Source of the DNA: Leptolyngbyaceae cyanobacterium JSC-12
GTDB taxonomy: Bacteria; Cyanobacteriota; Cyanobacteriia; Leptolyngbyales; Leptolyngbyaceae
Assembly (NCBI GenBank): GCA_000309945.1
Contig: CM001633.1
Location: 1,076,723 to 1,140,722 of the forward strand
Direction: 5' to 3'
Length of the DNA: 64,000 nt
The notes below the pieces were generated by a model that saw only the letters and a list, made by a program, of their open reading frames with translations, was not told the origin of the DNA and did no database searches. Numbering within the stretch: position 1 is the stretch's first letter; every line of letters begins with the position of its first letter. Below, piece after piece: positions 1-52,866 of the stretch. A program made the translations under genes and the position numbers.

Positions 1-893
1 GTGGATTTTCAGCCTTTTCAGAACAGTTGCCACCCGAAAAAGTAGTGACTTTGCTGAACCTGTATTTGGGAGCAATGGCAGATGTGATTGATCACTACAA
101 AGGCACCATCAATGAATTTATTGGAGACGGTATTTTCGTTATGTTTGGCGCACCGATCGCTCGTGCCGATGACTCTCAACGTGCGATCGCCTGCGCTGTT
201 GCCATGCAACTCGCTATGAAAGTAGTGAATGAACAAAATCAACAGCTAGGGCTGCCCATGATTGAAATGGGGATTGGTATTAATACAGGCGAAGTGGTCG
301 TTGGCAACGTGGGTTCGCAAAAACGAGCCAAATACACCGTCGTTGGAAGCCAAGTCAATTTAGCAGCCCGGATCGAATCGTACACAGTGGGTGGACAAAT
401 TCTCATTTCCGAAAACACCTTGCGAGATGCAAACTATGACATTCAAATAAATAGCGAACTTCAAGTAGAACCGAAAGGAATTCGCGCCCCGATCACGCTC
501 TACGAAATTAGCGGAATTGGGGGTAAATACAATCTCTTTTTACCAACAACCAATACTCTTTGGATTGATGTGCATCCAGCCATACAACTGGAATACACAA
601 TTTTGGAAGGGAAACACGTGATTGGTCATCTGTTTCAAGGAACATTGACTCGACTATCGGCAACGGAAGCAGAATTGCAAACTGCCTATGATCTGGAGTT
701 GTTAAGTAATCTCAAACTGCATTTGTTAACCAATTCAAACGCCTCAGCCTCAATAGAGACCCAACCATCAGGAGATTTTTATGCCAAAGTGATTCGTAAA
801 CTGGATCTGAGCAATCAGCGGTTTTTGATTCGCTTCACCTCGATTCCGCCTGAAGTTGAGGTTATATTGCAATCATTACGGCAACCTGCATGA
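1..893 (+). CDS. class III adenylate/guanylate cyclase, C-terminal part (5' partial)
   Basis: The reading frame is open from base 3, so the gene begins before the window. It opens with GFSAFSE, the second half of the first metal-Asp motif; that Asp itself lies outside. The second metal Asp is in the GDGIFVMFG motif, and the Asn/Arg transition-state pair is in VNLAARIES. The base-selecting position in the YTVVG motif is Thr rather than Asp, the class IIIb signature of bicarbonate-responsive cyanobacterial cyclases, so cAMP is the likely product. After the catalytic domain (about residue 170 of the visible part) follow about 120 residues that resemble a PilZ fold but lack a clear RxxxR and D/NxSxxG, so c-di-GMP binding is doubtful. 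The N-terminal sensory part cannot be seen. Confidence 0.9.
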   Translation, partial: GFSAFSEQLPPEKVVTLLNLYLGAMADVIDHYKGTINEFIGDGIFVMFGAPIARADDSQRAIACAVAMQLAMKVVNEQNQQLGLPMIEMGIGINTGEVVVGNVGSQKRAKYTVVGSQVNLAARIESYTVGGQILISENTLRDANYDIQINSELQVEPKGIRAPITLYEISGIGGKYNLFLPTTNTLWIDVHPAIQLEYTILEGKHVIGHLFQGTLTRLSATEAELQTAYDLELLSNLKLHLLTNSNASASIETQPSGDFYAKVIRKLDLSNQRFLIRFTSIPPEVEVILQSLRQPA

Positions 894-8326: not shown

Positions 8327-9442
8327 ATGGAAGGAATTGATTTACAGCAAACATTTATTCGTTCTCTGACCGAGCTTGGAATCCCTTCAGGGGCTGCCAA
8401 GGCAATCTGGATGCCGTTGCCAATGTTGCTCATGATCATTGGTGCAACGGTTGGGGTATTGGTAACTGTATGGTTGGAGCGTAAAATCTCTGCCGCAGCC
8501 CAACAGCGCATTGGTCCTGAATACATTGGACCTCTGGGTGTGCTAGCACCCGTTGCCGATGGTTTGAAGTTAATTTTTAAGGAAGACACTGTTCCTGCCA
8601 AGTCTGACCCCCTCCTCTTTACCTTAGGTCCTGTTATTGTTGTCATTCCAGTTTTTCTGTCCTATCTTATTGTTCCCTTTGGGCAGAACCTCGTTATTAC
8701 AAATGTCAGCATGGGAGTTCTACTCTGGATTTCGCTATCAAGCGTGGTTCCGATTGGGTTGCTGATGTCTGGCTATGCTTCCAACAATAAATATTCACTC
8801 TTGGGAGGTTTACGGGCAGCCGCTCAGTCGATTAGCTACGAAATTCCACTGGCGCTGGCGGTTCTGGCCGTCGCCATGATGTCTAATTCGTTAAGCACTG
8901 TAGATATCGTTGATCAGCAGTCTGGATACGGTATTTTGGGCTGGAATATTTGGCGACAGCCCGTTGGTTTTCTGATTTTCTGGATTGCTGCTTTAGCTGA
9001 GTGCGAACGTATTCCGTTTGACTTACCAGAAGCAGAAGAGGAATTAGTGGCTGGCTATCAAACAGAATATTCAGGGATGAAGTTTGCTTTATTCTATCTG
9101 GGTTCCTATGTCAACCTGGTACTTTCAGCGCTGCTTGTCTCGGTTCTATACCTCGGTGGATGGGAAAGTCCAATTCCTACATCCTTGATTGCTAATCTGA
9201 TGGGAATTAGTGAAACGAGTGCCTGGCTAGAGATTGTTGATGCTTCAGTTGGTATCACGATGACACTGTTAAAAGCCTACTTCCTGGTGTTTATTGCCAT
9301 TTTGCTGCGTTGGACTGTGCCAAGAGTACGAATCGATCAGTTGTTAGACTTGGGTTGGAAGTTCTTACTACCGGTTTCGCTGGTGAATTTACTTCTAACA
9401 GCAGCCTTAAAGATCGCTTTCCCAGTTGCCTTTGGTGGTTAG
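8327..9442 (+). CDS. ndhA: NAD(P)H-quinone oxidoreductase subunit 1
   Basis: 371 residues, about eight membrane helices. It is the NuoH/ND1 homologue of photosynthetic NDH-1, joining the peripheral arm to the membrane arm and forming part of the plastoquinone pocket. Conserved loops [21 protein letters not shown] and the acidic loop [25 protein letters not shown] are intact. It is the first gene of the conserved cluster ndhA-I-G-E seen in cyanobacteria and plastids; ndhI follows after 57 nt. Confidence 0.96.
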
Positions 9443-9499
9443 GCACTGGAGAATTGCTCGACCTCAATTTCCTAAACTAGACCTTCAAATGGTAGAACT

Positions 9500-10090
9500 A
9501 TGCTGAAGTTTCTCAAGCAAGTTGGTGATTACGCCAAAGAGACCGTTCAAGCTGCAAAATACATCGGGCAAGGACTTTCCGTTACCTTTGATCATATGCA
9601 GCGGCGTCCTGTGACAGTGCAATATCCTTATGAGAAGCTGATTCCGTCCGAGCGGTTTCGTGGGCGCATCCATTTTGAATTTGATAAGTGTATCGCCTGT
9701 GAAGTTTGCGTTCGTGTGTGTCCCATCAACTTACCAGTGGTTGATTGGGAGATGAACAAGACGACCAAGAAAAAACAACTGAAGCACTACAGTATTGACT
9801 TTGGAGTTTGTATTTTCTGTGGCAATTGTGTAGAGTACTGCCCTACTAATTGCCTGTCAATGACGGAAGAATATGAGCTTTCTACCTACGATCGCCACGA
9901 GCTAAATTACGATAATGTGGCACTGGGTCGCTTGCCTTATAAGGTCACGAATGATCCGATGGTGACACCGTTACGAGAACTGGCTTACCTGCCGAAGGGT
10001 GTGACGGAACCCCATGGGTTGCCGGAGAATGTGCGTCGAGCAGGATTGCGCCCAGAGGAAATTTTGGAACAGGAACAGTCCAATAACTAG
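9500..10090 (+). CDS. ndhI: NAD(P)H-quinone oxidoreductase subunit I
   Basis: 196 residues. It is the NuoI/TYKY homologue carrying two [4Fe-4S] clusters that relay electrons, from ferredoxin in cyanobacteria, toward plastoquinone. Ligands are in [12 protein letters not shown] and [12 protein letters not shown], each with the CxxCxxCxxxCP layout. The C-terminal extension after about residue 150 is typical of the cyanobacterial and plastid form. The last codons and stop lie inside a 20-nt tandem duplication. Confidence 0.96.
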
Positions 10091-10118
10091 ATTAGAAATC
10101 CAATAACTAGATTGGAAA
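10079..10118. repeat. 20-nt tandem duplication over the ndhI stop
   Basis: TCCAATAACTAGATTAGAAA is followed directly by a second copy with one change (TTGG for TTAG). The first copy contains the ndhI stop codon, so the duplication copied the gene end into the ndhI-ndhG spacer. Confidence 0.85.
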
Positions 10119-10169
10119 ACGGTAAAGGTTCGACTAGTGGCTGTTAACGCCAACTTGAGGAGAAACGTT

Positions 10170-10808
10170 GTGAATTTAGCGGAAGGGGTTCAACTGGTAT
10201 CGCTGGGCTTGCTGTCTTTCATGATGTTGGGGGCAGCCCTGGGAGTAGTGTTGCTGACAAATGTTGTCTATTCAGCGTTTTTGCTGGGTGGCACCTTTGT
10301 AAGTGCAGCTGGAATTTATCTGCTGCTAAATGCAGATTTTGTCGCAACTGCCCAGGTTCTCATCTACGTCGGTGCAGTTAACGTTCTGATTATTTTTGCC
10401 ATTATGCTGGTAAACAAGCGACAAGACTTTGCACCACTGCCCAACGCCTGGATTCGAAAATCTGCAACGGCAGTTGTATGTTTCGGGTTGTTTGCGCTAC
10501 TAGCAACGATGGTTTTGGTTACTCCGTGGAGTGTTTCGGTTGAGGCTGCAACAAGCTCTGCGATTGTTGAGATTGGTAAGCACTTCTTTACAGATTTTCT
10601 CCTGCCATTTGAGCTAGCCTCGGTGCTGTTGCTAATGGCGCTGGTTGGAGCGATTATCTTGGCACGCCGCGAGTTTCTACCAGAGGGCGCGGTTTCTGCG
10701 CAGCAGTCTCTGTTGACTTTGCCAGAACGTCCTCGTGAGTTGGCTGGGGTCAATCCAGCTAGTCCTGATCGTCCCATCGCTTCTGCGCCTTCTGACCAAA
10801 ACGGTTAA
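10170..10808 (+). CDS. ndhG: NAD(P)H-quinone oxidoreductase subunit 6
   Basis: 212 residues from a GTG at 10170 with GAGGAG seven bases upstream. This start gives MNLAEGVQ, the usual NdhG beginning; an in-frame GTG at 10137 would add 11 residues but has no ribosome site. NuoJ/ND6 homologue with five membrane helices, including the conserved DFVATAQVLIYVGAVNVLIIFAIML segment with its pi-bulge helix of the proton-pumping region. The C-terminal 40 residues are hydrophilic and variable. Third gene of the ndh operon. Confidence 0.94.
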   Translation: MNLAEGVQLVSLGLLSFMMLGAALGVVLLTNVVYSAFLLGGTFVSAAGIYLLLNADFVATAQVLIYVGAVNVLIIFAIMLVNKRQDFAPLPNAWIRKSATAVVCFGLFALLATMVLVTPWSVSVEAATSSAIVEIGKHFFTDFLLPFELASVLLLMALVGAIILARREFLPEGAVSAQQSLLTLPERPRELAGVNPASPDRPIASAPSDQNG

Positions 10809-10815
10809 GCGCTAG

Positions 10816-10845
10816 TAAGTGCTAGGAATTTAAGTGCTAGGAATT
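10816..10845. repeat. 15-nt tandem duplication between ndhG and ndhE
   Basis: TAAGTGCTAGGAATT occurs twice head to tail with no mismatch, 8 nt after the ndhG stop and just before the ndhE ribosome site region. Confidence 0.85.
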
Positions 10846-10852
10846 AGGGTTT

Positions 10853-11158
10853 ATGCAACTTCAATATTTTTTGATTCTGGCGGCTGCGCTATTTTGCATT
10901 GGGATTTACGGGCTGATTAACAGTCGTAATGCTGTTCGGGTGTTGATGTCAGTTGAGTTAATGCTAAACGCTGTAAATCTTAACTTGATGGCATTCTCTA
11001 GCTACCTCGATCCTCAGAGTGTTAAAGGACAGGTGTTTACGGTGTTTGTAATTGCGATCGCAGCAGCGGAAGCAGCAGTTGGATTGGCGATCGTCCTGGC
11101 AATTTATCGCAACCGTGACACAGTGGATATGGAGCAGTTCAACTTGCTGAAGTGGTAG
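10853..11158 (+). CDS. ndhE: NAD(P)H-quinone oxidoreductase subunit 4L
   Basis: 101 residues, three membrane helices; NuoK/ND4L homologue of the NDH-1 membrane arm. The conserved buried glutamates that take part in proton translocation are seen in [16 protein letters not shown] (helix 2) and [18 protein letters not shown] (helix 3). Last gene of ndhA-I-G-E; the NAD kinase gene follows after 102 nt on the same strand. Confidence 0.96.
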
Positions 11159-11260
11159 ACGTTCGTTGTTTCCTCCTCTAAATTCTTGTTTGAATGAGGT
11201 TGTTAATTGCTGGTATTTGTACACTAGCGACTAACGATTCACATTTAAATACGGAAAAGC

Positions 11261-12187
11261 GTGCAACTCAAGCAAGTTATTATTGCCCACAAAGCGGGTG
11301 ACCCCGCTAGTCAGAGATGCGCAGAGCAATGCGCCCGTCAATTGGAAGAACGGGGTTGTCATGTTCTGATGGGACCAACAGGTCCCAAAGATAATCCTTA
11401 CCCAGTGTTTCTTGCGTCTGTCTCTCAAACTATCGATTTAGCGGTTGTATTAGGGGGGGATGGCGCAGCCCTGACTGCTGCCCGGCATTTAGCCAGCTCC
11501 AAAGTCCCCATTTTGGCAGTCAATGTGGGGGGGCATTTGGGTTTTTTAACCGAACCTTTGGAATCATTTGTACCGTCTGAAAAAATTTGGGAACGGTTAA
11601 CCCAGGATTGTTATGCAGTGGAGCGCCGAATGATGCTCCAGGCAACAGTGTTTGAGGGCAACCGAACAAATTTGGAGCCAATGAGCGATCGCTACCTGGC
11701 GTTGAATGAAATGTGTGTAAAGCCAGCCTCGGCAGATCGGATGCTAACCTCTATTTTGGAGATGGAGATTGATGGGGAAGTAGTGGATCAGTATCAAGGT
11801 GACGGGCTATTGGTTGCGACGCCAACTGGATCAACCTGTTACACTGTCGCAGCGAATGGACCAATCGTGCATCCTGGGATGGATGCAATTGTCATCACGC
11901 CAATTTGTCCTCTCAGCTTATCGAGCCGCCCGATTGTGATTCCGCCCGGTTCAGTGGTCAGCATTTGGCCCCTGGCAGACCGAGAATTAACAACCAAACT
12001 TTGGATGGATGGAGTGCTGGCAACCTCCATCTGGCCGGGACAGCGGGTAGACATTCGAGTAGCAGAGCATCAGGCACAGTTCATTATTCTGCGAGAGAAC
12101 TATTCTTACTACCAGACTCTGCAAGAAAAACTACTGTGGGCAGGGGCACGCATCCGCTACAACAATAGCCATCGCAATGGCAATTAA
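11261..12187 (+). CDS. nadK: NAD kinase
   Basis: 308 residues from a GTG start. It phosphorylates NAD to NADP, the electron carrier of photosynthesis. Key motifs: LGGDGAALTAAR (catalytic GGDG), NVGGHLGFLTE, and DGLLVATPTGSTCYTVAANGPIVHP in the glycine-rich C-terminal domain. Most cyanobacteria carry two NAD kinases; the paralogue is not in this window. Its position downstream of four NDH-1 genes on the same strand may allow co-expression, but the 102-nt gap leaves room for its own promoter. Confidence 0.94.
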   Translation: MQLKQVIIAHKAGDPASQRCAEQCARQLEERGCHVLMGPTGPKDNPYPVFLASVSQTIDLAVVLGGDGAALTAARHLASSKVPILAVNVGGHLGFLTEPLESFVPSEKIWERLTQDCYAVERRMMLQATVFEGNRTNLEPMSDRYLALNEMCVKPASADRMLTSILEMEIDGEVVDQYQGDGLLVATPTGSTCYTVAANGPIVHPGMDAIVITPICPLSLSSRPIVIPPGSVVSIWPLADRELTTKLWMDGVLATSIWPGQRVDIRVAEHQAQFIILRENYSYYQTLQEKLLWAGARIRYNNSHRNGN

Positions 12188-40562: not shown

Positions 40563-41459
40563 CTAGCCTTTGATGGCGATCGCAACCCCTATCAACAGTA
40601 CGAGTGCTCCTAATAACACAGGTGCAGGGGGAATTTCCTTAAACAAGAGAAAACCCAGCCCACTAGATAATACAGGTTCAAACAAAATCACCAAACTTAC
40701 GATGGTCGGCGAAATCCACCGCACTGCCCAATTAAAACTAGTATGCCCAAGCAGTTGGGGGATAAATGCCATCAGCGTAATGTAACCATAAACCGTTGGT
40801 GAGTAGCTGGTGTAGCTGGTTCCAAGCACCAGTGGTAGTGGCAACAGAGCGATTGCTGCCATGCTATAGGCAACCACGACATAACTGCCAATGCTCAAAC
40901 CATTACGCTGGGCTTCTCGCCCCAATAAAAAGTACAAACTTGCTGCCCAGGCTCCGGCCAGTGCCAAGCCATCCCCTAGTAGAGGATTACTCCCCGTTGC
41001 AGTGGGCTGAATGCCGCCTAGCCCAATCAAAACTCCGCCCAGCAGCGCAATTCCGATGCCTGCGAGCATTTTGTGAGTCGGGATTTCTCCCAACCAGACC
41101 CAGGACAGTAGCGCTACCCAAACTGGATTGGTGGTCACGAGGGCTGTGGAAGCGGCGATCGAGGTGAATGCAAGGGAAGTAATCCAGGTGGCGAAATGGA
41201 CAGCCAAAGCAACGCCAGCCGCGATCGCATAGCTTATCCCTACTGAAGTCGGTTTGGGTTGAGTGACTGAACCCCAGGCTGGAAGCAGGATCATTGCGGC
41301 AATGCTCAATCGTAGAGCAGCCAAAACCAGGCTAAACCCAACACTCTGCTCGGCAGCCGCATGCATTGCCAACCGAACTAAAGGAGCCGCCGTCGAGACT
41401 GCCAAAACGCCGAGTGTTAGTGTCAAGTTCAGGTGCCACGGGGTAGGGCGCTCGCTCAC
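40563..41459 (-). CDS. EamA/DMT-family transporter
   Basis: 298 residues with ten predicted helices arranged as two EamA repeats (first about residues 12-145, second about 158-296). Signature elements: ALVTTNPVWVALLSWVWLGE at the end of repeat one and ISPTIVSLVILFEPVLSSGLGFLLFKE at the end of repeat two. Typical cargo is amino acids or other metabolites for efflux; substrate unknown. Its ATG overlaps the stop of the DUF928 gene (ATGA), so it is translationally coupled to the CHAT-CHASE2 unit. Confidence 0.93.
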   Translation of the reverse strand: MSERPTPWHLNLTLTLGVLAVSTAAPLVRLAMHAAAEQSVGFSLVLAALRLSIAAMILLPAWGSVTQPKPTSVGISYAIAAGVALAVHFATWITSLAFTSIAASTALVTTNPVWVALLSWVWLGEIPTHKMLAGIGIALLGGVLIGLGGIQPTATGSNPLLGDGLALAGAWAASLYFLLGREAQRNGLSIGSYVVVAYSMAAIALLPLPLVLGTSYTSYSPTVYGYITLMAFIPQLLGHTSFNWAVRWISPTIVSLVILFEPVLSSGLGFLLFKEIPPAPVLLGALVLLIGVAIAIKG

Positions 41460-42298
41460 TTCACTAGCGGTTGAGATGCAATTTGCTCCAGATTAAAGTT
41501 TTGCTTGGATTTATCACTATTGGTGATGCCAGCCAATAACTCTTGCCAGGACCGGGTCAGTTCAGGATCTTGTGGACGTTGCAACCGCAACTTAGCTAAG
41601 GTTGTCAGTGCATCGTACCAAAAGCCATTTTGGGCATAAAGTCTGGCGTTTTCAATAGATGGCTTGGCTGTGAGTTGTGCGGCGGCAGGCAGGCGATCGC
41701 GAATCACAATCGCAGTAATGTTAATATTGTCCGTGCTGGCAGCCGTCGCTGATTTACATTCCAGCGCAAAGTACCAGCGATAGCGTTTTCCAGGTTGCAG
41801 GGCTGGAGCAGTCCTGGGTAGTGTCAGGCTAATGATTCCCGGTTGGTTGGGGAGCGTTACCGACTCTTCATAAATAGTCCTGCCTGCATCTTCGTCATCA
41901 ATCGAGAGCTTCGCTGGGATTGCCGGATTGCTATACGGAACGTACACCCAGAACGTGGGACGTTCGAACGTAGTGTATCCCCAGACATTGACCAGAGGTG
42001 GACGGTTTTCTCGCCCTGGTTCGTAAATCTCTTCAAAGGGTACGATCGCCGTGAGCGGTAAGGCTGTTGCCGGACACACTGCCTGACCTCCTACTGTGCG
42101 ACTCCCACCGCCGCGATAACGTCCACTGGGAGCTGGTCCTGACACCTCCCGCCGCACATACACCACTCCTGGTGTGCGTTGTGCTATGTGAACAGGGCGT
42201 AATTGAGCGGAGGTAATAGGTTGGAACAATGACAAACTGCCAAGCGCGATCGCCATACCCACACTGCCAAAAACAACTGATTGAAAGATGAATTTCAT
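41456..42298 (-). CDS. DUF928 secreted protein
   Basis: 280 residues. The ATG at 42298 has AGGAGG upstream. A signal peptide of about 30 residues (MKFIFQSVVFGSVGMAIALG to QPITSA) directs export. The mature part has TVGGQAVCPATALPLTAIVP, then ERPTFWVYVPYSNPAIPAKLSIDDEDAGRTIYEESVTLP and GKRYRWYFALECKSA, the pattern of DUF928, with two cysteines that could form a disulfide. In cyanobacteria DUF928 genes commonly lie beside CHAT/CHASE2 genes, as here. Role unknown; a periplasmic partner of the CHASE2 sensor is a reasonable guess. Confidence 0.9.
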   Translation of the reverse strand: MKFIFQSVVFGSVGMAIALGSLSLFQPITSAQLRPVHIAQRTPGVVYVRREVSGPAPSGRYRGGGSRTVGGQAVCPATALPLTAIVPFEEIYEPGRENRPPLVNVWGYTTFERPTFWVYVPYSNPAIPAKLSIDDEDAGRTIYEESVTLPNQPGIISLTLPRTAPALQPGKRYRWYFALECKSATAASTDNINITAIVIRDRLPAAAQLTAKPSIENARLYAQNGFWYDALTTLAKLRLQRPQDPELTRSWQELLAGITNSDKSKQNFNLEQIASQPLVK

Positions 42299-42308
42299 AA
42301 AGTCCCTC

Positions 42309-44825
42309 CTAGCGCGAATAAACAAGGTTTAGCGACTGAACGGGCTGGCGAGTCAGTAAAATAGCGACTCCTGTACTACTGGCTCCCAATGTCAGGGCGG
42401 CTGGCACAAACGGCACCCAGCCTCCCAGCAATATCAAAATGCCAACACAGATTCCGTAAAGCACTCCGGTCGATAGTCCAATCGCCAGGGCAACTTGAGG
42501 CATTACCACAGACCGCGACTTCCGAGCACAAAGCACCCATGCCAGCAAGCCACCTGCGATCGCCCAGCTACCAATCCAGATCCCATCAATCCAGGGCGAC
42601 CACATCCACAATAAGGGACGACCATCAAGAACTGCACTTAAGATTTGGCTAAGTTTGTGAGCGTGCACAAACACACCGGGAACCCGTTCATCTAGCCCAA
42701 TTCCATAAGGCGTTTTGAAAACATCGCGATCGCGAGCCGTTACCCCAATCAGCACAATCCGTCCTGCAATCAACGTCTGCAATTCTTCAGCCCTGGGCGG
42801 ATGATCCGTTGCCAAAAACCAGCGCAGAGGTTTGGATTTTGCTACCTCACTGGGACGGCGAGTTGCCCGGTAATTCAGCAAAATTTGAGTGCCGTAAGCA
42901 TCCCCGGTTAACCCCTGGTAGGCACCTTGGCGCGATCGCAACCGAGAAAACATCACCTCATAGGGTTGCCAGTTTCCCGTCGCTGAGCGCCCATTTTTAT
43001 TGAAGTAGCCATGAGGAGCAGTTAGTAACTGCTGAGGTTGCTTGCTGAGATAGACTTTAAAGTTCTCATCCCACTCTTTGGCAAAACCAGTATGTTGTCC
43101 ATCAAAGTAGGGCTGTAGATAGCGCAGGGCTAGTTCGACATTAAATGCGGTTGGCACCTGACAGCGCGATTCCACCTGGCTTTTAGGTGACATCGCCAGC
43201 AAATGACGACGCACTACTTCATCTGCATCCATCACAAAATCACTAAACCCCACCCGGAAACTCTCCGGGGGAATTTCAGGCGGTGGTTGAATGCCATAGG
43301 GATTGGCTTTGTCATATCCCACTTTGCAGATAGCAACCAGGTTAGGATTATCACGCAGTTGGGCAATCAGTTGCGGATACTGAGCAGCAACTTTTTCATC
43401 TCGATAAACATCCAACCCAATCGCTGCAGGCTTGTGAGCATTAATCAAGGTCAGTAGTCGCGTCAGGTTGCGGTCTGAAATAGAACTCCCCCGCAAGTTT
43501 TCTGTTTGCTGCTGTAAGCGCACATCTTCGTCGTCAATGGTGACAATAAACAGGCGAGGATCAGGAACTTCTTCGGGGCGCAACCGGGTCATCTGATCAA
43601 ATGCGGCAAACTCCAATCCTTGCAGCACGCCCCCAGCACGCAACCCACTTACTATCCCCCCGATCGCTAGACTGGCAACCATCGCGATTGTCAGCGATCG
43701 CCGAATGGAAAAGGGGACAAATTGAGGTTCGGGTTCAGGCTCAAGCTGAACAAAATCATTCCAGGTAGGCGGAGTAACTGCCGGATGTTGGCAGATCAGC
43801 GGCAACCAGGTGGCACAGGGAAATTGGTCTTCCAACCCCTGCAAGCGTTCTCGTGCTTCTCGCACAGCCAGGTAAAGGGGCATGCCTTTGGCATACTTAT
43901 CTAAAAAATATTTCAAGAACTCCTGCGCAACCCGATCCGGAACGGGTTCTCGCATCACAATGATTTGTGGAATCCGGAGGTCAGCAAGTTCTCGCGCCAA
44001 CCCTAACCCATCGCAAGAGTTAAAGATTGCCAGTTGCAACCCGTTTTCTACTGACTTTCGCAGAGCATACTTCAATTCACTAATAGTGAGACTGTCGGTT
44101 TTGTTGAGATAAATTTTGCCGCTCTGGCGATCGCCATGGCTGGAACTATGCCCTGCAAAAAACAGAATATCCCACGGTTCCCGCCAGAGTTCATCCGTCA
44201 AATGTTTACGCTCAGGCTCAACCAGGGTTGACACTTGGGCGTAGGGCAGGCTGGCAAGAAGCGCCTGATCAGCTTGAGTATCAATGCCATTGCTGTTGCC
44301 AATTACGGACAGAATGTTGACATGGGCTTTGTCTTGCGATCGCACAGGAGAGGGAGCATCCGTATTAAGTGCACTAATGGCAAATTCCGCCTTGGAATAG
44401 CGCTCCAAAAAATCCAGTAAGTGCCAGGGCATTTGCCGCAACTGGCTATCTTCAGTCTGTAAAATAATGCGAATCGTTTCATCAGGCGATAATCGTTCCA
44501 GCCATTTTTCTCGCAAAGGGCGGAACTCTTCTGCCAGTAGCCAGGTATTAAATCGCGCTTTCAATAGTTGGGCAGCATGAATGCAATCTGCAGTCAGCGA
44601 AACGTTAGGGTTTTGTCCTTTCTTAGCATGAATGCGATAGCGCGAATCCAGCCGCCAGTAAGCATCCTGCCAGCGACTGTAATACAGCGGCATTTCTGGT
44701 AGGGGTGGCAGTTTCCCCGTCGTTTCAACAAAGGGACGTTCTCCCTCATGCCCAATTTGTAACATTGCCGTAAATCCGTGGTCAAAGCTGCCATCAATAA
44801 ATTTCAGGATGACTAGTTTACCCAT
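42309..44825 (-). CDS. CHAT-CHASE2 transmembrane protein
   Basis: 838 residues from the ATG at 44825 (TTGGAGG eight bases upstream). N-terminal half is a CHAT domain, the caspase-like protease family, with the likely dyad His226 in FFAGHSSSHG and Cys271 in FNSCDGLG. A membrane helix near residue 385 leads to an extracytoplasmic CHASE2 sensor domain (about 400-720, beginning GLEFAAFDQMTRLRP), then three closing helices. The protein therefore could sense a periplasmic signal and control a cytosolic protease-like domain. It forms a unit with DUF928 downstream (10 nt) and DUF1822 upstream (106 nt). Target and signal are unknown. Confidence 0.93.
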   Translation of the reverse strand: MGKLVILKFIDGSFDHGFTAMLQIGHEGERPFVETTGKLPPLPEMPLYYSRWQDAYWRLDSRYRIHAKKGQNPNVSLTADCIHAAQLLKARFNTWLLAEEFRPLREKWLERLSPDETIRIILQTEDSQLRQMPWHLLDFLERYSKAEFAISALNTDAPSPVRSQDKAHVNILSVIGNSNGIDTQADQALLASLPYAQVSTLVEPERKHLTDELWREPWDILFFAGHSSSHGDRQSGKIYLNKTDSLTISELKYALRKSVENGLQLAIFNSCDGLGLARELADLRIPQIIVMREPVPDRVAQEFLKYFLDKYAKGMPLYLAVREARERLQGLEDQFPCATWLPLICQHPAVTPPTWNDFVQLEPEPEPQFVPFSIRRSLTIAMVASLAIGGIVSGLRAGGVLQGLEFAAFDQMTRLRPEEVPDPRLFIVTIDDEDVRLQQQTENLRGSSISDRNLTRLLTLINAHKPAAIGLDVYRDEKVAAQYPQLIAQLRDNPNLVAICKVGYDKANPYGIQPPPEIPPESFRVGFSDFVMDADEVVRRHLLAMSPKSQVESRCQVPTAFNVELALRYLQPYFDGQHTGFAKEWDENFKVYLSKQPQQLLTAPHGYFNKNGRSATGNWQPYEVMFSRLRSRQGAYQGLTGDAYGTQILLNYRATRRPSEVAKSKPLRWFLATDHPPRAEELQTLIAGRIVLIGVTARDRDVFKTPYGIGLDERVPGVFVHAHKLSQILSAVLDGRPLLWMWSPWIDGIWIGSWAIAGGLLAWVLCARKSRSVVMPQVALAIGLSTGVLYGICVGILILLGGWVPFVPAALTLGASSTGVAILLTRQPVQSLNLVYSR

Positions 44826-44931
44826 TGCGATCGCCTCCAACCAGGCAAAAGTCAAGCGCGGGGGCTAGGAGCGAGCAGCCAATCACATGACTCATACTCA
44901 GCCTTTCTGCTCTGATGCTCGTACTTAACTA

Positions 44932-45864
44932 TTAGATGACAAACGCTTGAGTATCCTGAAAAGAATTCAGGCGCATTTGCAAATGAAATACCTCTCCTGA
45001 GGCTCCATCAATCTGCAATTCTAGAAAATCTTCGTTACCCGTTGCCGTCGCATCGATGACCACATTACCGGTATCATCCAAAATTGCCATCTGTAATCCT
45101 GGCGGCAAGTTGGGGTGATTATCTACAGGATGAAGTTGGAGCCGAATTGCGATTTGCTCGGCGGTTTCAGCCTGCATATCTACAACTAAGGCAATGGCTT
45201 GATCTCCCAGCATAATTCGCTTAGCCCGCCGCACTGAGTTACGTCGAAAAGCATAAGCATGACTGAGTTCAGACGGTGTCAACACTTGCTCAACAGCTTG
45301 CCAGCCTGCTGCGATCGCCTGCTGTCCACTTTGGAGCGTATTTTGCAACCAGGTGCTGAGATTGGTCAGCGTGCGTTCAACAGGGGAGGAGCGCAGAGCA
45401 TCCAGGTGCTCCAGCAGTTCTTCCGGCGATCGCAAGTCGCTCAACGACAGTTCTTCATCCGTTGCAGCAGGGACAAAACCAAGAATCTGCGCTGCCTGAG
45501 AGGACTCATCCAGCTGCACCACCACATATCCAATCCGGTCTTCCCAGGTTTCTGCCGGAACCTGACACCGTTCCTCGTTTGGTTTCACTGGACGACACTC
45601 CAGGCGTCCTACCCCTGGCAACTCCAGATCGGCAACATCGGTGCAGGTTCGCATAACGGGATTCCAGCTATCGCCTGCAGACAGATTCGTAGGAATATCC
45701 ATTAGCTGCATATAGTCCTGAGTCACCAAAACCGCCAGGGTATTCAACCGCACCTGTTCCGCTTTGGTTGGAGTAGGTTGTTGATTCGCAAACCCCTGGG
45801 CAATTTGGCGTGCCCCTTGAGTAATTGGGAGGGGCAAAGCGAACTCATAGATATCGTGTGTCAT
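44932..45864 (-). CDS. DUF1822 protein
   Basis: 310 residues, cytosolic, acidic. The beginning (FALPLPITQGARQIAQGFANQQ) and YVVVQLDESSQAAQILGFVP, the central QVLTPSELSHAYAFRRNSV and the beta-rich C-terminal end (IALVVDMQAETAEQIAIRLQLHP, LPPGLQMAILDDTGNVV) match DUF1822, a cyanobacterial family found next to sigma-like and CHAT genes. Such proteins look like CHAT partners or substrates, or stress-sensor adaptors, but no function is proven. 15 nt after the sigma-like gene. Confidence 0.88.
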   Translation of the reverse strand: MTHDIYEFALPLPITQGARQIAQGFANQQPTPTKAEQVRLNTLAVLVTQDYMQLMDIPTNLSAGDSWNPVMRTCTDVADLELPGVGRLECRPVKPNEERCQVPAETWEDRIGYVVVQLDESSQAAQILGFVPAATDEELSLSDLRSPEELLEHLDALRSSPVERTLTNLSTWLQNTLQSGQQAIAAGWQAVEQVLTPSELSHAYAFRRNSVRRAKRIMLGDQAIALVVDMQAETAEQIAIRLQLHPVDNHPNLPPGLQMAILDDTGNVVIDATATGNEDFLELQIDGASGEVFHLQMRLNSFQDTQAFVI

Positions 45865-45879
45865 AGTGATGAATCCTCA

Positions 45880-46509
45880 TTAGCTAGTAATATATCCCTC
45901 GGACTCACCAAACTTACGCAATCGTGGCATACATTGTCGGCGATAAAAACTGCTGAGAGTCGGAATGGCAATACCGTATTCTTCAGACAGTGCTTTCCAA
46001 CTGGATTCTGAGAGCAGCCGCCGCAAAATTAACACCTGACAGGTCACTTCAGGATGCCCCTCAATATGCAACCGCCGTAATTCCCCGTCCGGATCGTGCT
46101 GCGCCCAGGCCTTCACCTTCTCCCAAACAGGTTCTACGTCTCCTCGTTCATCAGCTAGCCCTTCAGTAATGTCTACGACCTCACCATCTTTGTCTTGCCA
46201 GGACGAGATTTCCTTTTTGCGGCGTTTTTGCGTATCAATATAAAAGTCTTGTAGGCGACGCTTAAGATAAGCATTTAGCCAGGTTGCCACGCTGCCGAGA
46301 TCAGGATTGTAAGCGCTACAAATATTCTTGCAAAAGTAAACCCAGGTTTGCTGCAAGGCATCTTGATAATAAGCAACGCTCTCCCGCCAAAGCTTGTTAG
46401 AAACAGCACGAATTACTTTTGTGAGATAGCGTTGCCGTGCAGAACTACCAGGTGGATGGCGACATGCTTCGGTGACCCACTCGCGCAACTGGATATCGAA
46501 ATCGCTCAT
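45880..46509 (-). CDS. sigma-70-like regulator of the CHAT-CHASE2 unit
   Basis: 209 residues. Region 2-like segment YYQDALQQTWVYFCKNICSAYNPDLGSVATWLNAYLKRRLQDF and a region 4-like C-terminus (SWKALSEEYGIAIPTLSSFYRRQCMPRLRKF) mark it as a divergent sigma-70-type protein. No anti-sigma gene is adjacent; instead DUF1822 and CHAT-CHASE2 follow in the same direction. It may drive its own operon or other genes in response to the CHAT branch. Whether it binds RNA polymerase is unproven. Confidence 0.85.
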   Translation of the reverse strand: MSDFDIQLREWVTEACRHPPGSSARQRYLTKVIRAVSNKLWRESVAYYQDALQQTWVYFCKNICSAYNPDLGSVATWLNAYLKRRLQDFYIDTQKRRKKEISSWQDKDGEVVDITEGLADERGDVEPVWEKVKAWAQHDPDGELRRLHIEGHPEVTCQVLILRRLLSESSWKALSEEYGIAIPTLSSFYRRQCMPRLRKFGESEGYITS

Positions 46510-46647
46510 GCTAATTAGTACAGAAAGATGGGGAAGTAAGGTTGAATAGTAGGTGAACAGCAGGTATTGAACATGCCTCTTTCAGAAGAAAGTCCCACAG
46601 AATTTACTCTAAAAGTTTTTCTAATTATGAAGCAAAGGACTGGCACT

Positions 46648-47058
46648 TTAGCGATCGCAGACATAGTTCAGAACAGTACTAGCGCTACTGCCTGCTCTGG
46701 GCTGAAACAGTGCACCATTTTCGCCGTAGCTAAAGCGTTTAATCACTTTGCGTTCTTTGTCGTAAGCTGTGATCTGGCGCAGCCGCTGAGTTTTACTAGT
46801 GCAGTTGGCTGACCAGTTGAGCACAACTCCATGCACAGGTTTATCAACCGATTCTTCTAAGAATGCGTTGTTAGGCTGAGGAAACTCGCGATACTCCCAA
46901 TAAAACACTGCATCTGCCTTGCGCTGAATAGAGCTTTGATCAATCAAAAAGCGATCGCCCACAACATTCTGCGTCACGCTTTCCCACTCTGCAGCGATCG
47001 CAGGCGGCACCCCCCCCAACAGCCCAACCCCCAACATCACTTCTGCAAATTGCTTCAT
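46648..47058 (-). CDS. secreted surface-adhesin E-like protein
   Basis: 136 residues from the ATG at 47058 (AAGGAG upstream). Signal peptide MKQFAEVMLGVGLLGGVPPA cut near IAA-EW. Mature pattern: WESVTQNVVGDRFLIDQSSIQRKADAVFYWEYREF, with later cysteines in ANCTSKTQR and NYVCD. That fits a small exported beta-domain seen in surface-adhesin E proteins. Role unknown. It is on the same strand as its neighbours but separated by over 60 nt on each side. Confidence 0.75.
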   Translation of the reverse strand: MKQFAEVMLGVGLLGGVPPAIAAEWESVTQNVVGDRFLIDQSSIQRKADAVFYWEYREFPQPNNAFLEESVDKPVHGVVLNWSANCTSKTQRLRQITAYDKERKVIKRFSYGENGALFQPRAGSSASTVLNYVCDR

Positions 47059-47125
47059 CGCTTCATTCTCCTTCCCAATTCCACCACCCGTTGCGCTGGG
47101 CAAACATTACTCGGACGGTTGAGTT

Positions 47126-48181
47126 TTATCTGGCTAAACTGGCTGCTTCCAAAATTGAGCGCTCTAGCAACAGACCATTCACGGTTTTATAATCGGCAAT
47201 CTTCCAAACGCCATTATCTGACATGAAGGTGAATCGCACTCGTTGGCTGGAAAAGTCGGTTTGATTGGGGTCGATCATGCCACTACGATAGAGAGTGCGA
47301 TCTTCTGTGACATTTACTTCAATGGTGGCGCGATCGCGGGCAACGACAAACCGCTCAATCGAATCCACATTTTGTACTCCGTATCGAAAATATGCCCGGT
47401 TGCTTTTCAGCCAATTCAGCACACCATCTGGCTTGACCAACGCCGCAAGTAATTCTCCCGTTGTCAGATCAACAACCTGCTGCTGGTCATAAGGTGGGGC
47501 AAAGACTTCCGTTTTAGCTTGCAACCAGCGATTAATCAGCGCAACAGCTCGTTGTTCATTAAACGCATCGGAGGGCGGGGCAGAAGGAATAACCACAACC
47601 GCAGCAGGAGCTTTGGCAGCAGGAACCGTCGCTGTGGCGGGAGGTGCTTTGGGTGGAACCAGCTTCGTGGAGGGCTTGGGAGCGGTATTACTGGGGGTAG
47701 GAGCCGATTTTGTTGGTGGATTGGGAGCAGTAGCAGTCGGGTTGGGAACAGTTGGTTTGGTTGACGGAACAGCTTTGAGAGTAGTGACAGTAGGAGCAGG
47801 TTTAGAGCTGGTGGCAGCAGGCGATGTAGGAGATGGAGTAGGGGTGGGAGATGGGGAGGATTTTCCCAGGTAGTTTTCGACGTTGCGGATAGCCTGAGTG
47901 GCATAGATATCTTCGGGGCGTTCGTCGAGAGCGCGTTTGAAGTAGATCAGGGCAGTTGCATAGTCGCGGCGGTTAGTAGCAGCGTACCCAGCTTGCATAT
48001 AGCGATCGTAAAAGGTTGAACTTTTACTAGGGGAGGTGGAGGAAGGTGCGGAAGATGGCGTTTGAGCGATCGCAGAGAATAAACCGAACTGCCCATACTG
48101 AAGTTGTGCTGGAACAGAGACGATGCCAAGCCCAACCGTAAATCCAACGGTCAGAATGAATTCACGAAAACGTATCACCAT
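47126..48181 (-). CDS. secreted or membrane-anchored TPR plus IMS (DUF4101/ARC6-like) protein
   Basis: 351 residues. An N-terminal hydrophobic stretch (about residues 8-28) is a signal peptide or anchor. Residues about 60-100 form one TPR-like unit (QAGYAATNRRDYATALIYFKRALDERPED). A long Pro/Ala/Thr linker of about 100 residues follows. The C-terminal 130 residues are an IMS domain as in the ARC6 division protein (INRWLQAKTEVFAPPYD, RVRFTFMSDNGVWKIADYKTV). Periplasmic location is inferred. It is not the cell-division protein Ftn2 itself, which is longer and J-domain-like. Confidence 0.8.
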   Translation of the reverse strand: MVIRFREFILTVGFTVGLGIVSVPAQLQYGQFGLFSAIAQTPSSAPSSTSPSKSSTFYDRYMQAGYAATNRRDYATALIYFKRALDERPEDIYATQAIRNVENYLGKSSPSPTPTPSPTSPAATSSKPAPTVTTLKAVPSTKPTVPNPTATAPNPPTKSAPTPSNTAPKPSTKLVPPKAPPATATVPAAKAPAAVVVIPSAPPSDAFNEQRAVALINRWLQAKTEVFAPPYDQQQVVDLTTGELLAALVKPDGVLNWLKSNRAYFRYGVQNVDSIERFVVARDRATIEVNVTEDRTLYRSGMIDPNQTDFSSQRVRFTFMSDNGVWKIADYKTVNGLLLERSILEAASLAR

Positions 48182-48217
48182 ATCTGCTTACCATTTTTTG
48201 TTGCCTAACCGATGATG

Positions 48218-50065
48218 CTAACGCCATCGCTGGGTGTTACGGCTAAATTTTGTATCTTGAACGACGTTTCCTACTCCTTTGATAATGCCACGCCCAATCA
48301 ATCCGATACCGCGCCCAATCACCTCTGTCAGAATATAAACAACCCCACTGCCAACAAAGGAAATGGCAGACCGTAGGCGAGGGGCGATCGCGTCGCGGGC
48401 TTCGAGCGCAAGGGTAACTGCCAAACCCACTCCTGATAGTTCATCTAACTCCTGGTTGCGAGGCGAGTAAACGGAGGTTTTGACAATTCCCAACTCGCCG
48501 AATACGAATAAATTGTAGCGACTTTCAAAAATTGCGGTAGGTTCCTTAAAGTAGCGATTAATGCGGTATTTCCAGGAAAGATTGTTACGGAATCGTTCGA
48601 TTTCGCGGGTAGACAACAGACGGCGATCGTAGAAATTCTGCTTTACTGCCACCACATTACCAAAGCGATTCAGCAGGGGTTGAATCACAGCATTCCCCAC
48701 CTGAATTATTAAATTTTGCAGCAGGGCTTCCATTCGAGTCATCGCTTCTACCGTGCCTACTGCGTAAGTCGTCTCATCCACCATCAGCGGCACCTGAAAC
48801 AGCAGATGAGCCAGGAAATCTGTCACCATCGGAATTTTGCTTAAGATTTCTGCCTGCACCACATCGCTATCCTGCAAGAGTACACTCACCATTTCAACGG
48901 GCGGTTGCATCAGGCGATCGCTGGGAGAATCCCCCAGAGGCAGCGTGTAGTAGCGTCCAAAGAAATCAGTCGTCGTTGCCCGCCACACATCCTCAAGAAT
49001 CAGCGATTGTTTGTTGGCAAGCTGGGTAAATTCCATCTGGGAAAAGCGCAACTCCGCCAACACCTCTTCTAGCTTGCGTAAAACAAGGGTCAGCAGCTCA
49101 CGCTTGCGGTCTTCCCGCAAAATATCAATCTCTAATGGAACATCTGTCAGATTCCGCACCCCAAGCTGGAGTTTGGCAAAAGTGGTATCAAACAGAGAAG
49201 CCTGGATGTTACGCAGGGCAGTGCTTTCGGGCTGGAGAACAATCGGTTCAATGGGAGCCTCCGCTGGGGGAGCAACGCGCGGTGGTAAAGGAGAGACAGG
49301 GAGCGGAGAGGTCAGGGGGGATGATGCGACAGGAGGCACGGCAGATGAGAATCCTGAACGTTCTTCGGAGGTAGTAAGCAGGCGCTTAATAAGCCAGCGA
49401 GAGGCTCGGAGTTCGCGACGGCGACCTGTGAGGAACAGTTGATCAAGCAGAGTGAGGTTGGGGTCGGCTAATTGGGCGTTAATTTGGGCGATCGCGGCAT
49501 CAATCTGTGCCAATCCCGATTGCCGCAAGTTCCGTCGCACCCGTCCCAAGAGGCTGGGAGCATCAACCATTGGCTGAGAGGTTGTGGCAGAGGCAAAAGC
49601 TTGAGCCACCGACTCCATGCCCTGCACCCAGAAGGGATATCCCGCAGCCACTTGCCGCATAGCCAACACTAGGTCAGCAATGACTGTATCTTTGCGACAG
49701 TAGCCCAGGGCACCAGCTTGAAATGCCGCAGATAACAACACGGGATCTGCCACAGTACTAATGGTCAGAATCGGTAAATTGGGATACTGGCGACGCAGAT
49801 CGCGGCAGAGAGCGATCGCAATCGCTGTATCGGGAGGCAAGTCCAGGCTCAAGATGATGAGGTCGAGCGGAATTTTGCCCATGGTTTCAGTCGGATGCTG
49901 ATCAAACCATTGCTGCAGCCCCCGCAATGCCGCCCTATCCGAATCTGCTTCTAACACAAGTTGCACATCTGAGTAGGGTGCAAGACGGTCTGCGAGTTCC
50001 TGTCGAAATTGGGAATCGCTATCAATGAGCATGACATTGAGGGTAGCGGGAGATTGGGAGATCAT
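48218..50065 (-). CDS. response-regulator-like DUF3685 (Ycf55-like) protein
   Basis: 615 residues. Residues about 8-140 are a receiver-like domain (VMLIDSDSQF, ILTISTVADPVLLSAAFQAGALGYCRKDT). At the phosphoacceptor place the sequence reads DLIILSLDLP, so Ser stands where Asp is usual, and the N-terminal acidic pair is also incomplete. Lys of the RKDT element is kept. The C-terminal 450 residues match DUF3685, the Ycf55-like domain of cyanobacteria and red algal plastids (DDYR-type segments such as LLSTREIERFRNNLSWKYRINRY). No DNA-binding domain. Probably a phosphorylation-independent pseudo-receiver. Confidence 0.85.
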   Translation of the reverse strand: MISQSPATLNVMLIDSDSQFRQELADRLAPYSDVQLVLEADSDRAALRGLQQWFDQHPTETMGKIPLDLIILSLDLPPDTAIAIALCRDLRRQYPNLPILTISTVADPVLLSAAFQAGALGYCRKDTVIADLVLAMRQVAAGYPFWVQGMESVAQAFASATTSQPMVDAPSLLGRVRRNLRQSGLAQIDAAIAQINAQLADPNLTLLDQLFLTGRRRELRASRWLIKRLLTTSEERSGFSSAVPPVASSPLTSPLPVSPLPPRVAPPAEAPIEPIVLQPESTALRNIQASLFDTTFAKLQLGVRNLTDVPLEIDILREDRKRELLTLVLRKLEEVLAELRFSQMEFTQLANKQSLILEDVWRATTTDFFGRYYTLPLGDSPSDRLMQPPVEMVSVLLQDSDVVQAEILSKIPMVTDFLAHLLFQVPLMVDETTYAVGTVEAMTRMEALLQNLIIQVGNAVIQPLLNRFGNVVAVKQNFYDRRLLSTREIERFRNNLSWKYRINRYFKEPTAIFESRYNLFVFGELGIVKTSVYSPRNQELDELSGVGLAVTLALEARDAIAPRLRSAISFVGSGVVYILTEVIGRGIGLIGRGIIKGVGNVVQDTKFSRNTQRWR

Positions 50066-52094: not shown

Positions 52095-52661
52095 TTAGTC
52101 ATCTTCTTGCAATCCAGTTTTTAGCTTGCTTAAACCCAAGCGAATTCTAGTTTTCACTGTCCCTAACGACATACCCGTTTGAGCAGCAATCTGGCTTTGA
52201 GTTAACCCCTGGTAGTAAGCAAGCTCAATCACGAGGCGTTGTTCTTCAGGAAGCGTCTTCAGCACTGACAAGACGCGATCGCGCCGTTCAGAAATCATGG
52301 CTTCCTCAATCGGAGACTCGATGGGCGATGCAATCTGGATATCTGAAAGATTCGTAACAGTGAGCAATGATGAGGTGTAACATTGCTGTTTGCGCACCCG
52401 ATCCAATACTCGGCTGCGAGCTAACATAAACAGCCAAGTGTCTGCTCTACTTTTTGTACTAGTGTAGCGATCAGCAATGCGCCAAACCTGGGCAAATACT
52501 TCCAGAACCACTTCTTCACTTTCTTCGATCGACCTCAAACTCCTGAATGCCAGAGAGTAGATAATACACGCATAGCGATTGTATAGCTCAGAAAGCGCGG
52601 CTTGGTCACGATTGGCAATTCTGGCAAGCAGTGAGGCATCATCCAGGGATAGCGGCTCCAT
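52095..52661 (-). CDS. ECF-type sigma-70 factor
   Basis: 188 residues from the ATG at 52661. Region 2 is clear (LYNRYACIIYSLAFRSLRSIEESEEVVLEVFAQVWRIADRY) and region 4 has the helix-turn-helix LTQSQIAAQTGMSLGTVKTRIRLGLSKL. Sigma-3 is absent, as in ECF factors. No anti-sigma factor gene follows within the window, so control may be distant or by another route. Divergent from the copper ATPase gene. Confidence 0.93.
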   Translation of the reverse strand: MEPLSLDDASLLARIANRDQAALSELYNRYACIIYSLAFRSLRSIEESEEVVLEVFAQVWRIADRYTSTKSRADTWLFMLARSRVLDRVRKQQCYTSSLLTVTNLSDIQIASPIESPIEEAMISERRDRVLSVLKTLPEEQRLVIELAYYQGLTQSQIAAQTGMSLGTVKTRIRLGLSKLKTGLQEDD

Positions 52662-52866
52662 CAACAGGCAAACTTTTCAAGTTGATGGGGAAATTGTAAT
52701 CCATTTATCAGTCTTAAGATAGATGCACTGAGGGTGCCTGCGGACTCAAAAGCAAACCTGCAAACCTACCAGGCGATCGCGGTGAACTTTTTTGCCATCG
52801 TGCTTGACTCTCTAGTGGACTGGAGACTTCAGGATAGGGATAACTCAAAACTCAGGAGGTTTCGTG

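Follow-up and report, generated by a model that had tools for sequence, protein, structure and literature searches.

Does a membrane-bound, caspase-like protease control a sigma factor in cyanobacteria, and if so, through which protein? The question is raised by a compact locus in Leptolyngbyaceae cyanobacterium JSC-12, whose 5.53-Mb genome forms one contig (GCA_000309945.1, CM001633.1). In the 64,000-nucleotide stretch analyzed here (the window; genome positions 1076723 to 1140722), minus-strand genes are transcribed in the order sigma-like protein, DUF1822 protein, CHAT protease with a CHASE2 sensor, DUF928 protein, and EamA-family transporter. By its caspase-like CHAT domain, CHASE2, extracytoplasmic function (ECF) sigma factor, and DUF1822, it belongs to a gene grouping predicted in PMC8195603 (eLife 2021). 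Our analysis suggests that DUF1822 is very probably a regulator of the sigma factor and puts the chance that the whole locus works as a protease-switched sigma-factor circuit at about even.

Conserved gene order and a sigma/DUF1822 core

The first-pass annotation of this DNA had read the genes as one signaling unit and had named, beforehand, the conservation of their linkage as one result on which that reading would stand or fall. The gene order is kept. Two sets of loci, with open reading frames (ORFs) called mechanically throughout, were compared. The DUF1822-first set held 60 stretches, picked by hand for spread across families, and the window; it is biased to high scores and contains 64 DUF1822 genes, two of them short second copies. 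The CHAT-CHASE2-first set held the best 79 of at least 572 relatives. Of the 64 DUF1822 genes, 52 have a sigma-like gene among the four genes upstream in the same orientation (24 of a short and 28 of a long type; absent in 10, with 2 at contig ends), and 41 have a CHAT gene among the three genes downstream (25 with CHASE2 and 16 without). Of the 79 best CHAT-CHASE2 loci, 56 have DUF1822 at most two genes upstream in the same orientation, 72 have DUF928 no more than three genes away, and 31 have a same-strand sigma-like gene among the five genes upstream. The long-sigma/DUF1822 pair adjoins CHAT-CHASE2 on the opposite strand in several loci (e.g., L165, L176, and L179), and some Nostoc loci (L129 and L140) carry a large gene between sigma and DUF1822.

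Two variants of the arrangement were also seen. In L104, a TPR-CHAT gene (8784 to 11618) lies between the sigma gene and DUF1822, giving two CHAT proteins in this cassette; the genes in L129 and L140 are of similar size. In L193 (4409 to 6985) and L199 (130 to 2706), an 858-amino-acid ORF with a sigma-like C-terminal end and, by eye, an apparent NACHT-like NTPase and HEAT-like repeats sits upstream of DUF1822 and CHAT-CHASE2.

Trees separated the parts of the locus by how faithfully they travel together; they were made with FastTree without careful support, and their rows are weighted to CHAT-CHASE2 by the way the loci were found. The DUF1822 tree had 129 rows after three pieces shorter than 250 amino acids were dropped; 92 rows carried a sigma label (45 short and 47 long), and the 37 unlabeled rows were excluded from the sigma count. 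On this tree, sigma type changed once, the minimum, compared with 27 to 36 changes in 20 shuffles, and CHAT presence changed 10 times (25 to 31 shuffled). Sensor type also changed 10 times, against 10 to 15 in 20 shuffles and 12 to 15 in 200 further shuffles; this is under chance, yet far over the single change in sigma type. The CHAT-domain tree (122 rows) showed 8 changes in sigma type (14 to 21 shuffled), 8 in sensor type (12 to 15), and 7 in DUF1822 presence (22 to 25). The sigma/DUF1822 pair is therefore the stable core of the system; the proteases and sensors are more mobile, in a pattern that is not random.

An ECF-type sigma factor by predicted fold

The sigma-like protein (209 amino acids; window positions 45880 to 46509, minus strand) is divergent. 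Its sequence scores below the curated cutoffs of Pfam (E = 0.083; 13.1 versus 24 bits) and of the NCBIfam sigma70-ECF model (E = 3.9e-5; 23.3 versus 42.9 bits), and the best match in a PDB profile search was ECF SigK (E = 0.0012). An AlphaFold (AF2) model built from 23 relatives (predicted local distance difference test score [pLDDT], 88.7; predicted template modeling score [pTM], 0.51) has sigma2-like and sigma4-like domains with a flexible linker between them. The top three Foldseek rows for this model were ECF sigma factors, the best at E = 0.06 and none at E = 0.001. In a VIA comparison, all 50 listed rows were sigma factors or RNA polymerase-complex chains taken as the sigma subunit, one of which (9n9q_C) does not name sigma in its title. 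The sigmaE region 2, -10-binding domain (4lup_A) aligned over 86 residues with Z = 10.4 and a root mean square deviation of 1.9 Å, region 2 rows as a group gave Z = 9.2 to 10.4 at 1.9 to 3.3 Å, and region 4 (3hug_E) gave Z = 6.3 at 4.0 Å, values in a range (below about 13) that can arise by chance for helical folds. The ECF-type assignment thus follows from the predicted fold and the uniform list of sigma-factor matches, with weak sequence scores. Judged by its model, the protein is almost certainly an ECF-type sigma factor, for which binding to RNA polymerase and promoters is predicted.

A second, separate sigma-like gene lies elsewhere in the window (52095 to 52664, minus strand; long-sigma model E = 3e-10).

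DUF1822 as a probable anti-sigma factor

DUF1822 (310 amino acids; 44932 to 45864, minus strand; Pfam E = 7.8e-73) was matched in 244 of 386 genomes, 230 of them above the cutoff. Its AF2 model (pLDDT, 89.0) consists of an N-terminal alpha/beta domain (residues ~1 to 160), a flexible linker (~161 to 210), and an immunoglobulin (Ig)-like C domain (211 to 310). A search for a known fold failed for the protein as a whole and matched the C domain only, as an Ig/MG-like sandwich with Z = 6 to 7, which may reflect a common arrangement only. A PDB profile search returned nothing credible, and Pfam found neither a TPR match nor zf-HC2 in the window protein. By hydropathy, neither DUF1822 nor the sigma protein has a membrane-like segment; a hydrophobic segment was scored in 8 of the 64 ordinary DUF1822 proteins.

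Evidence on function comes from deep-branching relatives. Weak DUF1822 matches, mainly to the N domain, occur in small genomes of another class in the same phylum, which are probably non-photosynthetic lineages. From the genome search, 25 loci were picked, mostly those with better scores; L236 and L240 gave no row, leaving 23. The motif HxxxCxxC occurs within 75 residues behind the DUF1822 N domain in 9 of the 23, starting at residue 198 to 204, compared with 1 of 32 other ORFs (motif anywhere); a stricter pattern recovers eight of the nine, and by eye the same stretch appears in degenerate form in the remaining proteins. Pfam recognized zf-HC2 in three of nine deep-branching DUF1822 proteins scanned, above the cutoff in L216 (E = 1.3e-6) and below it in L217 and L245; L219 and L246, both matched in the genome search, showed no DUF1822 when scanned over their full length. 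Four proteins were scanned in full, and three of these end in a TonB-like match (one above the cutoff). A membrane-like segment follows an acidic stretch in 11 of 11 deep-branching proteins (two segments in L245).

Twelve wider stretches, including all nine motif bearers, were used to place these genes in context. In 11 of them, a sigma-like gene (187 to 296 amino acids) lies directly behind DUF1822 on the same strand, and the twelfth stretch ends at a contig edge. Of 128 ORFs, only these 11 match the long-sigma model at E = 0.01 (E = 5e-3 to 7e-10). All six that were scanned match Sigma70 region 4, four over a cutoff, three of those by about one bit or less.

Zinc-binding transmembrane anti-sigma factors are a general family, and zf-HC2 is an anti-sigma domain. 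With their zinc motif, membrane-like segment, and adjoining sigma-like gene, the nine deep-branching proteins are constructed like a membrane anti-sigma factor; the window DUF1822 differs in being soluble and zinc-less. The first-pass annotation had offered DUF1822 or the sigma-like protein as the target of the protease, and the trees and the zinc and membrane forms beside sigma-like genes have added to that a very probable role for DUF1822 as a sigma regulator. That it acts as an anti-sigma factor is likely, with inhibition itself suggested by its gene neighbors and relatives. In an opposing view, CHAT would cut the sigma factor itself, as an off switch or in maturation, with DUF1822 a non-inhibitory adaptor or chaperone. 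The low-confidence segment between the sigma domains (residues 116 to 124 of the AF2 model) would suit such a cut, and DUF1822 of photosynthetic cyanobacteria carries no recognized sigma-binding domain; however, zinc-motif, membrane-bound DUF1822 beside sigma-like genes points to inhibition, and the precedent proteases Csx29 and CalpL cut the inhibitor. We consider this view very unlikely, and DUF1822 as an inhibitor of the sigma factor is the reading carried forward.

A CHAT protease with exchangeable sensors

The membrane protease (838 amino acids from its ATG; 42309 to 44825, minus strand) matches CHAT (Pfam E = 3.3e-18) and CHASE2 (E = 6.2e-55). The ORF listed by the gene caller (42309 to 44855) has a TTG start; an in-frame ATG at 44825 lies 10 codons downstream, and many aligned relatives begin at the equivalent position. 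The catalytic pair reported intact in the first-pass annotation, His226/Cys271, is correctly numbered for the ATG start (His236/Cys281 from TTG). All 26 CHAT-CHASE2 proteins of the DUF1822-first set retain both the FAGHS and the Cys motif. Of the 81 in the CHAT-CHASE2-first set, 79 retain FAGHS (L147 has GHT, and L187 lacks the motif) and all 81 the Cys motif. Residues ~1 to 110 precede CHAT, and membrane-like segments at 387 to 408, 758 to 777, and 787 to 825 fit an arrangement with CHAT inside and CHASE2 outside. A PDB profile search gave no match at E = 0.01. Relatives of the CHAT-CHASE2 protein are also carried by cyanobacterial plasmids: of 72,556 plasmid records, 56 gave a match, 9 of them covering 80% or more of the query, and one of the 25 matches listed coincides with an annotated DUF1822.

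CHASE2 is one of many inputs. We counted 15 CHAT proteins without CHASE2 in the DUF1822 cassettes and scanned 14 with Pfam (the fragment L070 was left out). Peripla_BP_6 was found in five, an nSTAND1 NTPase in two (one with WD40 and one with a sub-cutoff GUN4), NACHT in one, TPR in two, and pentapeptide repeats ahead of CHAT in one; HEAT and PsbP-like matches, each in one protein, were below the cutoff, and one protein had nothing else. CHAT input modules are exchangeable across cassettes.

This mixture of sensors bears on what the system is for. PMC8195603 describes EACC2-caspase proteins with variable C termini, including CHASE2, reports linkage of most TRADD-N-independent cases with DUF1822 and an ECF sigma factor, and puts forward a model of autopeptidase activation with a transcriptional step. 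Read in that way, the locus would be a conflict or immune-like device in which the sensor triggers caspase self-cleavage and the sigma factor is the transcriptional arm of a cell-death or anti-invader response. The same families and the same argument have been published, close relatives carry STAND, NACHT, and WD40 modules, and the sigma protein in L193 and L199 appears by eye to be fused to a NACHT-like segment. However, a search of PADLOC-DB 2.0.0 gave no match at E = 0.01 for four proteins, and the deep-branching DUF1822 relatives resemble membrane anti-sigma factors. The sensors, moreover, include CHASE2 and Peripla_BP_6, which are typical of environmental sensing. We regard the conflict reading as unlikely and treat the locus as a candidate regulatory circuit.

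DUF928 accompanies CHASE2

The DUF928 gene (41456 to 42298, minus strand; Pfam E = 4e-49) encodes an exported protein with one membrane-like hydrophobic segment near the N terminus. In the 64-gene set, DUF928 was near 23 of 25 CHAT-CHASE2 cassettes, 0 of 16 other-CHAT cassettes, and 1 of the remaining 23; in that one (L055), DUF928 adjoins a CHAT-CHASE2 gene of its own. Across eight genomes, 24 of 36 DUF928 genes lay within 5 kb of a CHASE2 gene; with one draft genome removed, the count was 22 of 34, compared with 0.59 of 34 under random placement (maximum, 6 in 2,000 trials). Nine CHASE2 proteins near DUF928 that have no CHAT domain were scanned; five have a nucleotide cyclase domain, two a histidine kinase domain, and two no further domain. 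The pairing of CHASE2 with DUF928 suggested by the first-pass annotation is thus supported, and it extends to receptors with cyclase or histidine kinase outputs. Considering that DUF928 tracks CHASE2 whatever the output, it most likely serves the sensor and not the protease, and we judge it a probable periplasmic partner of CHASE2.

Two further loci of this kind occur in the JSC-12 genome. The first ORF of the window (27 to 893, plus strand; L113) encodes the C-terminal cyclase part of a CHASE2-cyclase, next to which, immediately beyond the window edge, lies a further gene for DUF928. At 203 to 213 kb (L115), CHASE2 and DUF928 are present as broken remnants that contain in-frame stops, and pieces of CHASE2 are repeated.

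A possible protease-switched circuit

We picture DUF1822 as holding the sigma factor in the cytoplasm, probably through its N domain and the linker stretch with W172, W188, and R207. A periplasmic ligand, bound by CHASE2 and presented or modulated by DUF928, would activate CHAT; CHAT would then cut DUF1822, most plausibly in the flexible inter-domain linker, and the freed sigma factor would transcribe its target genes. That CHAT cuts DUF1822 we hold to be an even bet, suggested by the gene linkage and by three precedents.

The closest of these is type III-E CASP, in which the TPR-CHAT protease Csx29 cuts Csx30, an inhibitor of the ECF factor CASP-sigma (PMC10028731). Both systems have a CHAT protease with a catalytic pair, a third protein, and an ECF sigma factor; type III-E CASP is activated by RNA through Cas7-11, whereas the window protein has a membrane CHASE2 sensor. 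Pfam found no Cas7-11 or other CRISPR gene among the eight genes scanned (40563 to 50065), and no Csx30 entry is among the listed structure matches of DUF1822, a listing that was not aimed at Csx30. In Anabaena, the CHAT protease HetF cuts PatU3, which limits HetZ (PMC12288457). HetF is likewise a cyanobacterial membrane CHAT protease cutting an inhibitor of a transcription regulator (PMC12288457, PMC8406250), and in our comparison its CHAT domain is homologous and has the GHS and FNSC motifs; unlike the window protein, it has one predicted membrane segment and TPR (PMC8406250) and no CHASE2-model match, and no sigma factor is named in the available portions of these papers. The window CHAT is 24 to 30% identical to HetF-like CHAT domains (E = 4e-10 to 1e-15), and the window protein reached 28.6 of 1,200 bits against the HetF model NF045509, in the CHAT region only. 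In CalpL-CalpT-CalpS, a signal-activated protease cuts the anti-sigma factor of an ECF sigma factor (PMC11417357); CalpL differs from CHAT-CHASE2 in being a Lon protease with a SAVED sensor for cyclic oligoadenylate.

JSC-12 also has a HetF-like gene of its own (genome positions 2851316 to 2854261; L210 and L212), a 1,002-amino-acid frame with two separate HetF-matching parts, below the HetF cutoff.

Several observations weigh against the proposed circuit. No CHAT gene lies within three genes of 21 of the 64 DUF1822 genes, with 2 more at contig ends, and 23 of the 79 best CHAT-CHASE2 loci have no DUF1822 directly upstream (two are at contig edges). JSC-12 itself has an orphan CHAT-CHASE2/DUF928 pair (L112, about 1833 to 1836 kb). 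Among the 15 CHAT proteins without CHASE2, neither catalytic motif is present in L096, and FAGHS is missing from L087. HxxxCxxC is present in 0 of the 64 DUF1822 proteins of the DUF1822-first set, so that their sigma-binding part is a putative one; in the deep-branching proteins, sigma may be bound by the zinc part and not by the DUF1822 domain. An ECF autoregulatory promoter was not found; a GGAA(C/T)...GTC pair was present in one of 44 upstream regions. Shared dyads in the same regions were A-rich, with best counts of 7, barely above the 6 in simple shuffles, and an upstream block in common with L126 occurs once in the genome at up to three mismatches.

The linker gives a further such point. 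W172, W188, and R207 were considered as a CHAT-specific cleavage site and rejected, as they are equally kept in CHAT-linked and CHAT-less members; R207 is an arginine in 25 of 25 CHASE2-group, 15 of 16 other-CHAT, and 21 of 23 CHAT-less DUF1822 proteins, in an alignment that is uncertain over this variable region, where some relatives have inserts that enlarge the linker. Since conservation is equal without CHAT, a binding element is at least as likely as a cleavage site.

In another reading, co-transcription would be the only link between two modules, namely, a sigma/DUF1822 regulatory pair and a CHAT-CHASE2/DUF928 pair that cuts something else, as HetF does. Each pair is indeed also found alone (including 16 sigma/DUF1822 pairs without a CHAT match, 15 with a long and one with a short sigma), and DUF1822 has no CHAT-specific signature. 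However, the genes stay adjacent in many families whose sensors differ greatly, and the distribution of CHAT over the DUF1822 tree is clearly nonrandom. A shared operon of independent modules is accordingly an improbable account, and we retain cleavage of DUF1822 by CHAT as the working proposal.

Beside the orphan L112 pair, the JSC-12 genome holds a long-sigma/DUF1822 pair without CHAT (L052, at about 4143 kb), and the two might act together in trans.

Gene layout and the EamA gene

Coordinates and Pfam matches agree with the earlier description of five closely packed minus-strand genes, although the span given for them then (42309 to 46509) omits DUF928 and EamA. The sigma and DUF1822 genes are 15 bp apart, and 106 bp separate the DUF1822 stop from the likely ATG of CHAT-CHASE2. 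The listed DUF928 ORF is 41456 to 42325; its likely start is the ATG at 42298, which follows AGGAGG and lies 10 bp past the CHAT-CHASE2 stop. The DUF928 and EamA genes overlap by 4 bp.

The EamA-family transporter (40563 to 41459, minus strand; Pfam E = 4.6e-23) had been counted as part of the unit and is better left outside it. When it was compared by blastp with the ORFs of the 60 and 79 loci, a relative lay beside DUF928, other than the window's own, only in L126, the closest relative (76% identity). With recurrence at the DUF928 side confined to that locus, EamA is rejected as a conserved member.

Significance

The EACC2-caspase system has the same parts as this locus, a caspase-like domain with an exchangeable sensor and linked ECF sigma and DUF1822 genes. 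PMC8195603 labels DUF1822 a TPR protein, whereas the window protein is modeled as alpha/beta and Ig-like domains; DUF928 is not in its main text, and an anti-sigma role or a faithful pairing was not seen in the portions available. In the open-license PMC literature searched (5.39 million papers), two papers name DUF1822 and one names DUF928, and neither DUF1822 as an anti-sigma factor nor the DUF928-CHASE2 pairing was found. The grouping itself is thus already published; new here are the arguments for an anti-sigma role of the DUF1822 family and for CHASE2/DUF928 as a portable sensor pair.

DUF1822, DUF928, and CHAT-CHASE2 are widespread in Cyanobacteria. Should DUF1822 prove to be an anti-sigma factor, with CHAT as the protease that releases it, many anonymous loci would resolve into one signaling route, and CHAT proteases would gain a further regulatory role beyond CRISPR and heterocyst development. 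DUF928 would become a candidate extracellular half of CHASE2 receptors, including those that are cyclases and histidine kinases. Somewhat more tentatively, at a little under even odds, a DUF1822 anti-sigma family may span the cyanobacterial phylum, with a membrane-bound form, zinc-carrying in part of its members, in the deep lineages and a soluble, zinc-less form in photosynthetic members under membrane or cytoplasmic CHAT proteases with exchangeable sensors. Such a family would give cyanobacteria a common protease-to-sigma route beside two-component systems, a non-CRISPR counterpart of Csx29-Csx30-CASP-sigma.

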